From Actinomycetota bacterium (GTDB taxonomy: Bacteria > Actinomycetota > Acidimicrobiia > IMCC26256 > PALSA-610), in contig PLBO01000121.1 of NCBI GenBank assembly GCA_003134555.1, forward strand, positions 1 to 64,000: 64,000 nucleotides of DNA, written 5' to 3'. Positions 52,043 through 56,386 of this stretch are shown here, piece by piece. Position numbers and translations under genes: made by a program. The notes below the pieces were generated by a model. That model was not told where the DNA came from and ran no database searches. It was given only the letters and a program-made list of their open reading frames with translations. Numbering within the stretch: position 1 is the first letter of the stretch; every line of letters starts with the position of its first letter.

Positions 52043-52048
52043 ACGCTA
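52043..52048 (-). promoter_or_regulatory. -10 element TAGCGT (leaderless start)
   Basis: On the minus strand TAGCGT is followed by seven nt and ATG 52035. It overlaps the stop region of the upstream globin gene. Confidence 0.55.
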
Positions 52049-52639
52049 CGACCGCGACGGCACAGATCTGTCGATCGGCACTCGCCGTGACGATCGTGAT
52101 CGGAGATGAAGGCTATTTCGTCCGCTGGACGAGCACGCCCATACCTGCTGATCGGTGGTGGCCGTAGGTGAGTCGGTGTCTCGGTGCTCCTGAGGTCCGT
52201 CCCAGGACCACCGCGCGAGAGGCAGTCCCATGGGGACATCGTCAGGAGAGTCGGGGTAGCCGGCCATGCGGCGCGTGGCCCAGCGAAAGTAAGCCTCGAG
52301 CATGGATCGCAGACGTTGGTCGTCCGGAAGTCGGGCGTCGTCGATGGCCTGCGCGAAGCAGACTTGCGCGCGTTCATCCATCTCGACGTGCTCGCCGTTG
52401 CCCGAGTGCATCTTCGTGACCATCGTCTCGTCACCCATCGACGCGCTGTGGGCGGGTGGCCCGCCGAGCGATTCCGCCCAATACGCGGCGAGTCGCTCAG
52501 AGTGCTGAGGGTGATAGCCGTGCGAGAACGCGTGGCTCACGACCGGGTCGGCGAGGCAGCGTGTGTGCCATGCGTGCGCAAGTCTCAGGAAGGCTTCCTC
52601 GCCGCCCACCGCGTCGAAGATCGTTTGCGACACAGACAT
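52046..52639 (-). CDS. Truncated (2/2) haemoglobin, group II-like, with C-terminal extension
   Basis: 197 residues from ATG 52639 (GTG 52633 also possible). The globin part covers about 1-145: TIFDAVGGEEAFLRLAHAWH, HSERLAAYWAESLGGP, VTKMHSGNGEHVEM and the end VPMGLPLARWSWDGP. Such globins bind oxygen or nitric oxide. Globins of this type usually end a few residues after the RWSWDGP block; here about 45 more residues follow that look like read-through (SSSGRNSLHLRSRSSRR). The gene stops on the promoter of the next gene. Confidence 0.8.
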   Translation of the reverse strand: MSVSQTIFDAVGGEEAFLRLAHAWHTRCLADPVVSHAFSHGYHPQHSERLAAYWAESLGGPPAHSASMGDETMVTKMHSGNGEHVEMDERAQVCFAQAIDDARLPDDQRLRSMLEAYFRWATRRMAGYPDSPDDVPMGLPLARWSWDGPQEHRDTDSPTATTDQQVWACSSSGRNSLHLRSRSSRRVPIDRSVPSRS

Positions 52640-52716
52640 CAGTATCGCAGCGTCTGCGCGCCAGGACTGCCGATCGGTGCTCGCCCTAACGGCGCGCGAT
52701 CGGGCACTATTCGTGC

Positions 52717-53052
52717 GTGTCTGCTCGCGCCAAAGCGCGCCCGATGGTGTGGCGTTGCGCCGCCTCCGTGTCGATGCTCTTGGTACTCGGGCTTTTGTTC
52801 GGCGCCGGCAAGGTTGCGGTTCGTTCGGTTTACCGCGACCACCTGAACTGCGGCAGTGTGGTGAAGCCGCTCGACGTCGAGGCCTTCGGTCCACCAGGTA
52901 CCAACCCGAGACCGTGCGAGGGCTCTCATAATCGCGACGCCGGCATCGCACTCGCCGGTCTTGTGGCTTCCGGCCTCGTGATCGTGGCCGTCGTTCGCTC
53001 ACGCCCTGGGAAACGGGGCGAACGCAGGACCGACGCGATCACGGCCGCTTGA
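52717..53052 (+). CDS. Small two-span membrane protein with extracytoplasmic cysteines
   Basis: 111 residues from GTG 52717. Hydrophobic spans at about 11-32 (WRCAASVSMLLVLGLLFGAG) and 76-92 (GIALAGLVASGLVIVAVV) flank a loop with two Cys (LNCGSVV, PRPCEGS) that could form a disulfide outside. The upstream element GATCGGGCACTATTCGTGC is shared with the membrane protein at 50387. No known family is recognised. Confidence 0.55.
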   Translation: MSARAKARPMVWRCAASVSMLLVLGLLFGAGKVAVRSVYRDHLNCGSVVKPLDVEAFGPPGTNPRPCEGSHNRDAGIALAGLVASGLVIVAVVRSRPGKRGERRTDAITAA

Positions 53053-53108: not shown

Positions 53109-54257
53109 TTACGGCGATGAGACGCGGCACGGGTCCGCGAGCGGGTTTCCGGTGGCGCCGGATGGCTGCGGGAAGAGGTACTGCACGTCGGGGAGCTGGC
53201 TCGCGTTCAAGTGCGCGTCGACTGTGTACAAGATCAGCGGTCGGACGTCGACGCGGGAGCCGTCGGGGCATACGGATGTTGGTGTCACGCTCGTGCTGGT
53301 GGACCTGAACTCGCACAGCGCCAACAACTGCTGTCCGTCGATGGTCGCGAGAACGGCGGGGATGGCGTTGCTCGCGCGTTTCAGCGCCGCCCGAGCGTCC
53401 GCGGCACGGATATCCGAGGTCCCCGTGACGAGCGAGCCGAAACCGAGACGGGGAGCAACCTTCGCGCATCGGGCCGAGAACGTTTCGAGCAAAGCCCGTC
53501 TGGGATCCAGGGTGGTCGTGTCCGAACTATGAGCACTCGGAGGTGCGAGGCTCGACGCGATGCGTTTCGCGGTTGCCTCGTCGTATTGTCCGGAGATCGT
53601 TACGTCCTGGCCGGTGATGCCCTGGTTGATGGTCGGCGCAGACTCGACCACACCGTTCAACACGATCGCAATCTGACGACCGACGTACGGGCCGGCGACC
53701 TTGGCGACGAAGTCGTCGTTCGCGAAGTGGAGGTTGACGATCCACTCGGCGGTCGTCGGGTCTATGACTGCATCCGCGGTGATGATGTTGTGTCCGGTCA
53801 GCAGCGTCGGGCCGAGCAAATAGCAGGCCGACTTGGAGCGATCGGGCACGACGACCTGCTCGCGCGCCGTCTGTTTCGCTTGCGGTGTTACAAGAGCACC
53901 CCCTTCGCAAGTGGTCGGCGCGGACGCTGTCACCCCTGGTTTCGATGATGATGTCGTCCGGCGGCCGTACGGCACGGTTCTGAGGACGAGGCGAAAGGCG
54001 AGCGCATCGCCGGGAGCTGTCGTCGTTGTCGGGACTTGGATGATTTGCACTCGTGTTGTCCGGTGTTGATCAGCGATCAGGACGAGCACGGTCGCGCCGA
54101 GTACGACCGCGGTGACAATGGCAAACACGAGGCGTCGTCGTCTCGGACCGGGTCGCCGCACGGACTCGGGGGTGACACCCGGAAACGGTGGCGCGATTGG
54201 CGAGGAGTCCAGCAGCTCGCCGACAAATGCACGGATCCGGGCGTCAAGGTCGTTCAT
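53109..54257 (-). CDS. Membrane partner of ECF sigma factor with SecD-head-like domain
   Basis: 382 residues from ATG 54257. A cytoplasmic N-terminus of about 45 residues (MNDLDARIRAFVGELLDSSP) precedes one membrane span (LVFAIVTAVVLGATVLVLIA, about 46-66) and a short Thr-rich linker. The extracytoplasmic part has a block strikingly like the SecD P1 head: YLLGPTLLTGHNIITADAV, then QIAIVLNGVVESAPTINQGI, then ISGQYDEATAKRIASSL. No other SecD parts (six membrane spans) exist, so it is not a translocase. Its start overlaps the sigma-factor gene by 14 nt; an anti-sigma or sensor role is inferred. Cys-bearing C-terminal domain unrecognised. Confidence 0.7.
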   Translation of the reverse strand: MNDLDARIRAFVGELLDSSPIAPPFPGVTPESVRRPGPRRRRLVFAIVTAVVLGATVLVLIADQHRTTRVQIIQVPTTTTAPGDALAFRLVLRTVPYGRRTTSSSKPGVTASAPTTCEGGALVTPQAKQTAREQVVVPDRSKSACYLLGPTLLTGHNIITADAVIDPTTAEWIVNLHFANDDFVAKVAGPYVGRQIAIVLNGVVESAPTINQGITGQDVTISGQYDEATAKRIASSLAPPSAHSSDTTTLDPRRALLETFSARCAKVAPRLGFGSLVTGTSDIRAADARAALKRASNAIPAVLATIDGQQLLALCEFRSTSTSVTPTSVCPDGSRVDVRPLILYTVDAHLNASQLPDVQYLFPQPSGATGNPLADPCRVSSP

Positions 54258-54723
54258 CAAGCACCGTCCGAAGTTGTCTGCGGGCACGCGCCAGATGGCG
54301 GCGCACACTGCCCTCTGTGATTCCCAGCCGTGATGCGACCGTGGCCGGTGCGAGATCGTCCCAATACGTGAGAACGATCACAGCACGCTGGCGGACACTC
54401 AGGAGCGCCAGAGCCGCGAGGATCTCTGGTCGCACGTCGGGACCGTGGGCAACGCTTGGCATGGCGGCGCGTGCTTCTCGTGCTCGACGACGTAGGTCTG
54501 ATCGGCGCGTTTGTCGGGCCTCGTTCAACACGCAACGAAACATGTAGCTACGCGGTTCTCGGACCGAATCCCACGCTTGCGACCCGATACAACTCGCCAT
54601 GGCACTCGAAACGATGTCGCCTGCATCCGAAGGTCCGACGAGTCCTGTCGCGAACCGGATCAGCTCGTCGGCGTACTTGCGATAGGCACCCTCTAAGTCG
54701 AGGGAAACCGAGTCCAGGTCCAC
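54244..54723 (-). CDS. ECF (SigE-like) RNA polymerase sigma factor
   Basis: 159 residues from GTG 54723. Region 2: AYRKYADELIRFATGLVG and DIVSSAMASCIGSQAW ending in REPRSYMFRCVLNEARQ. Region 4: LSVRQRAVIVLTYWDDLAPATVASRLGITEGSVRRHLARARRQL (given as its beginning LSVRQRAVIVLTYWDDLAP and end GSVRRHLARARRQL). It would direct polymerase to a special promoter set. It overlaps the downstream membrane partner and faces another sigma-factor gene across 233 bp. Confidence 0.85.
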   Translation of the reverse strand: MDLDSVSLDLEGAYRKYADELIRFATGLVGPSDAGDIVSSAMASCIGSQAWDSVREPRSYMFRCVLNEARQTRRSDLRRRAREARAAMPSVAHGPDVRPEILAALALLSVRQRAVIVLTYWDDLAPATVASRLGITEGSVRRHLARARRQLRTVLDERP

Positions 54724-54875
54724 TGCCTCACGATGCCACCAAGGACCTCTATGGGTGACATCGCCGCCAAGTTGACCCGACCTGATGGCGCATCGTTGAC
54801 GAATCCCTGAAGCCGGGTTGCGCGCCATGTGTCTGCTGATCAGTACTGGCTACGACGATCGAGGTCGAGCATTCT

Positions 54876-54889
54876 GGGCGGGTTCGCCC
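54876..54889. other. GGGCG-GGTT-CGCCC hairpin in divergent sigma-factor region
   Basis: A perfect five-bp inverted repeat with a GGTT loop lies in the 233-bp gap between the two sigma-factor genes. There is no T-tract, so it is not a standard terminator; it could be an operator or an mRNA structure. CTGATCAG at about 54835 is a second short palindrome in the same gap. Confidence 0.35.
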
Positions 54890-54956
54890 GTTGAGCCGCT
54901 CGCTATTTCCTGGTGGTCGACTCAACGTTTCGTCGCTGTCGTGACTTGATGAGGGA

Positions 54957-55454
54957 GTGGATGGCGTGGACCTGTCGGGCGACTTTGCTCAGTGGTACGC
55001 GGGTCAGCACGCTGGCTTGTTCGCGTCGCTGCTCGTGCTGTCGGGCGATCGGGAGCTCGCCGCGGAGGCGACCGATGAGGCCATGTCACGGGCGCTGCAG
55101 CACTGGGACCGGGTGTACAAGATGGGTTCACCCGAAGCTTGGACCTACCAGGTCGCGGTCAATGTGGTCCGCCGCGTCGCTCGAAGGCGGACCCTCGAGC
55201 GCCGCCTGCTGAGGCGTCTCGCGCCGGGTCAGGTCGCGGCGGCGCCGGCCGGTGAAGTCTGGGATGTGGTGCGGGGCCTGCCCGAGCGGCAGCGAATGGC
55301 GGTGGTGTTGCGCTATGTCGCGGACCTCGCCGAGGACGACATCGCGACAGCCATGGGTGTCACCCGTGGAACCGTCGCGTCGACACTCGCGGCCGCCCGC
55401 CGTTCGCTCGCCGGGTTACTGGCCGAACCCGATGTTGCCCAGGAGCCGTCATGA
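54957..55454 (+). CDS. ECF (SigE-like) RNA polymerase sigma factor
   Basis: 165 residues from GTG 54957 (GTG 54966 possible), with gaggga in front. Region 2: QHAGLFASLLVLSGDRELAAEATDEAMSRAL and SPEAWTYQVAVNVVRR (given in two pieces, residues about 17-80). Region 4: LPERQRMAVVLRYVADLAED, then TRGTVASTLAAARRSL. It is distinct in sequence from the divergent sigma factor at 54244. The stop overlaps the next gene (ATGA), which encodes its membrane partner. Confidence 0.85.
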   Translation: MDGVDLSGDFAQWYAGQHAGLFASLLVLSGDRELAAEATDEAMSRALQHWDRVYKMGSPEAWTYQVAVNVVRRVARRRTLERRLLRRLAPGQVAAAPAGEVWDVVRGLPERQRMAVVLRYVADLAEDDIATAMGVTRGTVASTLAAARRSLAGLLAEPDVAQEPS

Positions 55455-56386
55455 ATCGTTTTGACGACGCGGTACTCGATCTCTTGTCGAGCGCGCCGCG
55501 CGCGACCACCGTGGATGGTCTGCGTGACCGCATTCGTCGACGTCGTCGACGGCGCGCGATCACGATCGTCGCGATCACAACGGTGATCTCGGTCGGTTCG
55601 GTTGGCGTCGCGGCATCGCTCGGACACGACACCGGTAGGCCACAGATCGCGGTGTCGCCGACAACACCGTCGACCGCTTCCATAGGCAACCGATGGTGCG
55701 TGACAATCTCCCGCAACGACGCCATCGTTCGCGGCGTCGCGTACGGCACTGTGATCGTGGCGGAACCGAGCGCGCATGCGAAGCTCGTGAACTGGTCAGA
55801 GCTCGAGGTCAAGGGCAACCCCTTCACTGGAGGCCAAGACGACGCGCGCATCAGAGCTCACGACAAATTCTGGGTTGTCGACCTCCGGGCGACGAGCAGA
55901 TCGCAGGGCCCGTACACGTGGGGAATCGTTGCCCTCGACGCGGATACCGGTGACGTCGTCACCGCGAACGAGGGACCGAGCACGGGACCGGGAGGTGTCG
56001 GCTCGGAACCGGCGAACGAGCCGGCGTATTGGGACGCGCTACCGGACCACGGTTCCGAATGCACGTCCGGCACCCCCGCGACCACCTCGTCAAGCGGTTC
56101 CGCCACCTCGTCAACGGGTTCCGCGAACCTGCTGGCCGCGTGCACGGCAGGTGCCCGTGCATACGACGGAGTCGCGATTGCCGCATTCAAGGATCCATCC
56201 TCTCCGGGGCAGGTGGTCTGCTGGGCGGACGGCCATGTCCCCAAGTCACCGCCGCCGCTTCCGAACCATTCACAGCCGAAGGACTATGACCGCGTCGTCT
56301 TCAAGGCAACTCTCGACGGAAGGAACCGGGTGCTCGTCGAAGCCGGCTACCGCACCTCGCTTCCGGTGACCGCGCCGACCGGGTAG
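55451..56386 (+). CDS. Single-span membrane partner of ECF sigma factor, unknown sensor domain
   Basis: 311 residues. The cytoplasmic start MNRFDDAVLDLLSSAPR resembles that of the partner at 53109 (MN..D..(I/V)...LL.S.P). Seven Arg precede a membrane span (AITIVAITTVISVGSVGVAA, about 37-56) and a Thr/Pro linker. The outside domain has no recognised motif; a Ser/Thr tract (TPATTSSSGSATSSTGS) splits it near residue 215, and several Cys could form disulfides. ATGA overlap with the sigma factor makes an anti-sigma role likely. Confidence 0.6.
   Translation: MNRFDDAVLDLLSSAPRATTVDGLRDRIRRRRRRRAITIVAITTVISVGSVGVAASLGHDTGRPQIAVSPTTPSTASIGNRWCVTISRNDAIVRGVAYGTVIVAEPSAHAKLVNWSELEVKGNPFTGGQDDARIRAHDKFWVVDLRATSRSQGPYTWGIVALDADTGDVVTANEGPSTGPGGVGSEPANEPAYWDALPDHGSECTSGTPATTSSSGSATSSTGSANLLAACTAGARAYDGVAIAAFKDPSSPGQVVCWADGHVPKSPPPLPNHSQPKDYDRVVFKATLDGRNRVLVEAGYRTSLPVTAPTG

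Follow-up and report, generated by a model that had tools for sequence, protein, structure and literature searches.

Class II (CnrY-like) anti-sigma factors wrap the sigma2 and sigma4 regions of the sigma factor with a pair of helices. Short representatives of this class, such as CnrY, have a small cytoplasmic part (PMC8103513, PMC7406223), and strikingly conserved fused domains are described for the class I groups (PMC7406223). S. coelicolor SigE is controlled by the two-component system CseBC and not by an adjacent membrane anti-sigma factor (PMC8999054), and the promoter described for ECF41 is TGTCACA-n16-CGTC (PMC3426412). The locus analysed here resembles the CnrY type by its layout, in that a cytoplasmic part of fewer than 50 residues precedes one membrane span in proteins that adjoin, and are encoded with, a sigma factor; it departs from that type in that the outer domain changes between relatives and in one of the two proteins is a SecD P1-head. 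With class I anti-sigma factors carrying fused sensors it has in common a (putative) inhibitor domain inside and a sensor outside, whereas the fused domains are conserved there and the outer domain here mostly differs even between close sigma factors. In contrast to the two-component control of S. coelicolor SigE, each sigma factor here has its own putative adjacent membrane anti-sigma factor.

Within the window (the whole 64,000-nucleotide stretch of DNA that was analysed), the region 53109-56386 holds two units that face each other over 233 bp, each made of an ECF sigma gene and the gene of its partner (Table 1). The original prediction had the coordinates and strands of all four open reading frames right, as well as the gap and the two overlaps, which measure 14 nt in the minus unit (sigma stop at 54244, partner start at 54257) and 4 nt in the plus unit (ATGA). 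We read the locus as two complete, mutually insulated, self-amplifying ECF sigma/membrane anti-sigma cassettes of different clades, which belong to a sensor-shuffling family and stand back to back owing to the abundance and clustering of such cassettes in this probably acidimicrobial genome, a reading to which we give a probability of roughly three in four. Past the minus partner and on the same strand lies a bacterial globin gene (52046-53002, minus), and the space between the two has a plus-strand reading frame (52717-53052) whose product is predicted to be a small membrane protein.

Table 1. Features of the head-to-head locus, in positions of the window
Feature	Position	Strand	Basis
Putative membrane anti-sigma partner, minus unit; SecD P1-head outer domain	53109..54257	-	PF22599 59.3 bits
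ECF sigma, minus unit; clade M, GTG start	54244..54723	-	Sigma70_r4_2 52.9 bits; clade-M profile 203.7 bits
Predicted promoter of minus sigma, TGTCACCCATAGAGGTCCTTGGTGGCATC	54732..54760	-	Clade-M motif, leave-one-out score 28.2
Predicted promoter of plus sigma, CAACGTTTCGTCGCTGTCGTGACTT	54923..54947	+	sigP-subclade motif, leave-one-out score 23.2
ECF sigma, plus unit	54957..55454	+	Sigma70_r2 27.0, Sigma70_r4_2 48.9, TIGR02983 106.8 bits
Putative membrane anti-sigma partner, plus unit; outer domain without family	55451..56386	+	N-terminus of the plus-clade type

Two sigma factors and their membrane partners

Both sigma factors matched Sigma70_r4_2 well over its cut-off, while Sigma70_r2 was over its cut-off of 24 bits in the plus sigma and under it in the minus sigma (20.8 bits). 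Each consists of the sigma2 and sigma4 regions only, in proteins of 159-165 residues, as in ECF (group IV) sigma factors. The best NCBIfam match of both is the SigE family, TIGR02983, yet both stay under its cut-off of 141.55 bits (82.2 bits for the minus sigma; plus sigma in Table 1), and neither is thus counted as a member; the genome (4.63 Mb, 154 contigs) has 47 matches to this model at E 0.001 or better. The minus sigma, of 159 residues, ends after region 4 and lacks the large C-terminal extension of ECF41. As predicted, the two sigma factors are not close copies: they are 33% identical over 140 residues and belong to different clades, which rules out a recent local duplication of one unit, and the minus sigma scored far higher on the clade-M sigma profile than on that of the plus subclade (59.5 bits). 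Judging from homology and the position of the Shine-Dalgarno sequence, GTG 54966 rather than 54957 may be the start codon of the plus sigma.

Each partner has one predicted span with a positive inside (residues 43-61 in the minus and 36-54 in the plus partner), preceded by a run of Arg, followed by a Thr-rich linker and leaving cytoplasmic N-termini of 42 and 35 residues, respectively. To this extent the common plan proposed for the partners holds, but the shared start of the form MN..D....LL.S.P turned out to be superficial, as the N-termini are of two types. That of the minus partner scored 48.0 bits on the clade-M type versus 4.8 on the plus subclade (profiles built without the window), and that of the plus partner 29.9 bits (range 29.9-33.3) on the plus-clade type versus 10.7 on the clade-M type (leave-one-out profiles). 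The minus N-terminus also reached 21.9 bits on a profile of all non-M partners, indicating that the two types are related and not wholly separate. Residues 1-77 of the plus partner are 43% identical to the partner of the orthologous unit in G008.

No curated anti-sigma domain family in Pfam matched the partners, and HxxxCxxC was absent from both. With 35-42 cytoplasmic residues, compared with about 100 for the class I domain (ASDI/ZAS), and without that motif, the partners fall outside class I. The same features would suit partners that are positive co-factors or signal receptors needed for sigma activity rather than anti-sigma factors. We nevertheless regard this as unlikely, because the translational overlap, the short N-terminus with a single span and the co-variation of N-terminus and sigma factor fit the short class II factors such as CnrY (PMC8103513, PMC7406223). 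In the sampled loci, 116 of 133 sigma genes are followed, with an overlap or directly, by the gene of a partner that has a short N-terminus and a membrane span. Over 103 partners, N-terminal similarity tracks sigma similarity (Mantel r of 0.70 in clade M and 0.32 in the other set, with 0 of 2000 permutations in each), a correlation partly due to the shared descent of adjacent genes. Single-sequence AlphaFold models of the two partners, made without an alignment, were too poor for use (pLDDT of 38.2 and 34.7).

Promoter-like motifs at the two edges of the gap

Upstream of clade-M sigma genes we found the motif TGTCACCC-N12-GGTGGCGTC, whose version in the minus unit is TGTCACCC-N12-GGTGGC(G/A)TC. 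With at most 5 mismatches allowed, 47 of the 80 upstream regions of this clade contain it, versus about 5% of shuffles, and in the best members its spacing to the start of the domain is constant at about 49 nt. The TGTCAC and CGTC elements of the ECF41 promoter recur in it; unlike that promoter, it has a spacer of 18 and an additional GGTGG. Its partial palindromy would also allow it to be an operator, although its variants retain TGTCA and CGTC/TGTC rather than symmetry. The plus sigma is preceded by a different motif, CAAC-N12-TCGTGACTT, which is common to its sigP-subclade relatives and whose elements are identical in the G008 orthologue.

With the window left out of training, no control window scored as high as either site, and each motif has a single mismatch-free site in the 4.63-Mb genome, the one described here, which is also the sole match with fewer than 2 mismatches. 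A search for a regulon by promoter pattern accordingly yielded no second strong site in the genome for either motif, and the weaker matches were few and not far above a reversed-pattern control. Both predicted promoters lie within about 40 nt of the start of their own sigma gene and end near the start codons, so that the transcripts are likely leaderless or have very short leaders.

These sites bear directly on the original prediction, according to which the 233-bp region is a common control region that couples the two sigma factors of a co-evolved two-input module and lets them cross-regulate. The two predicted promoters differ, do not overlap and are about 160 bp apart, each being clade-specific and placed at its own edge of the gap, and we therefore reject a shared promoter. 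Neither motif occurs convincingly upstream of the other sigma gene: the plus-clade motif was not found in the minus direction of the gap (p about 0.14-0.22), and the minus-clade motif gave, in the plus direction, a single weak match, which falls at the minus promoter, a near-palindrome. The recurrence of head-to-head pairs in other genomes speaks for such a module, as does the pair in G281, in which both sigma factors are of clade M and have clade-M-like promoters, each 3 mismatches from the consensus, so that cross-talk is possible there. Against it stand, besides the promoter evidence, the non-orthologous pairings and the solitary position of the plus orthologue from the same genus, and we consider a coupled module at this locus very unlikely.

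Under the preferred reading of two insulated cassettes, the short cytoplasmic N-terminus of each partner would hold its own sigma factor in the manner of class II factors such as CnrY, the span would cross the membrane and the exchangeable outer domain would receive a signal, upon which the sigma factor would be released, read its own promoter just upstream and amplify its own operon. If so, the family would also provide a set of natural sigma/promoter pairs seemingly insulated from one another.

Head-to-head pairs in this and other genomes

A search of genomes for the mirrored four-gene arrangement showed that homologous loci mostly have a single unit, an outcome that the original prediction had itself named as refuting it and on which we reject a mirrored module conserved as such. 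Close homologues of the plus unit in the same order stand alone, including the G008 orthologue (71% sigma identity). Relatives of the minus sigma are numerous in the class, nearly all of them in lone units with the same plan of an overlapping partner, and a scan of genome contigs found one close Acidimicrobiales relative (a MAG), which makes that class the most likely origin of the window.

Nor is the arrangement without parallel, as had been supposed. Six head-to-head pairs with domain starts less than 1 kb apart were present in the loci examined (the window, G000:C8 of the same genome, G281, G303, G175 and G176), in a sample that was not random, the G281, G303 and G175 regions having been chosen since both sigma factors appeared in the clade-M hit list. 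Adjacent cassettes within 4.5 kb of each other in this genome comprise 5 tandem, 2 tail-to-tail and 2 head-to-head cases, i.e., a near random orientation. Compared with scattered genes, head-to-head pairs are in excess (2 found versus 0.12 expected in this genome, and 5 versus about 0.7 among 125 clade-M hits, expectations that are rough and rest on estimated gene counts), which makes a selective reason for pairing possible. Regardless, since cassettes cluster in all orientations, clustering explains the head-to-head layout without a shared function. The second pair of this genome (L040:639-3139) has a longer gap than the pair described here, and the G281:C66 pair (L174:440-4599), with its two clade-M sigma factors and similar promoters, is a better candidate for cross-talk.

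Captured and exchanged outer domains

The locus thus has the ordinary layout of two independent units, and the noteworthy part is the capture of SecD and FtsX domains. The outer domains of the two partners differ, as predicted; the original prediction missed that one of them derives from SecD and that sensors are swapped across the family. Residues 138-237 of the minus partner are a SecDF_P1_head domain (PF22599, cut-off 27 bits), its C-terminal part has no assignment, and SecD chains in the PDB match residues 137-238 (E 2.5e-7). Over 122 residues (116-237) the partner is 63% identical to the SecD of its own genome, which is encoded separately (C16), and in a tree the domain is sister to the SecD of its genus with moderate support (84/73). 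These comparisons identify the outer domain as a copy of the resident SecD's P1-head; the partner, with one span and 382 residues, lacks the six-span channel part. Among the papers searched, none links the SecDF P1-head to sigma factors. A far more divergent SecD P1-head partner was found in G003 (C83, L129:4823-5854), and its divergence makes it probably an independent case. In addition, a sister cassette of the present genome (G000:C122, L036:2063-2932) has an FtsX_ECD outer domain that shares 49% identity with the resident FtsX (C46) over residues 170-271. Together with the second P1-head partner, this suggests that domains of envelope machines have been picked repeatedly.

The SecD-like domain might be a passive scaffold with no Sec-linked sensing, as the quite different outer folds of other partners and the lack of any convincing clade-M promoter at the secD locus would allow. 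The repeated use of SecD and FtsX domains argues against this, and we hold a mere scaffold to be a real possibility, if on balance not the probable one. If the domain does sense, the P1-head copy of the minus unit would report on something handled by the Sec motor. We tentatively suggest that the minus unit may be a decoy sensor, in which the displayed copy lets Sec-motor clients or partners act on the inhibitor and thereby frees the sigma factor. On the same doubtful footing, the family could be a set of plug-in sensors that have repeatedly captured resident envelope-machine domains (SecD at least twice, and FtsX) behind a short sigma-holding module.

Across the 103 partners, sequence comparison indicates that the N-terminus stays with the sigma factor while the outer domain is exchanged. 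Of 725 clade-M pairs whose sigma factors are at least 50% identical, only 80 show detectable similarity between their outer domains. The outer folds assigned by Pfam behind the same inner module include SecDF_P1_head, FtsX_ECD, serpin, Kelch, WD40-like and BNR as well as copper-binding, Germane/Gmad2, SH3, PASTA, LysM and thioredoxin-like domains; the outer domain of the plus partner had no Pfam match. If the preferred reading is true, new envelope signals would be gained by exchange of the outer domain, even for a copy of a domain of an essential machine, with the sigma factor, the promoter private to it and the N-terminus that holds it all retained, and whether a SecD or FtsX copy serves as a stress sensor would become a directly testable question.

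The serpin, present as a whole (356 bits), is the outer domain of a partner in the present genome that has the same kind of short N-terminus and span and is encoded beside an ECF sigma gene (G000:C19, L038:1270-2712). Among clade-M partners (alignment A3, L111-L213), spore-germination-type outer domains are present, with Germane in ten and Gmad2 in nine.
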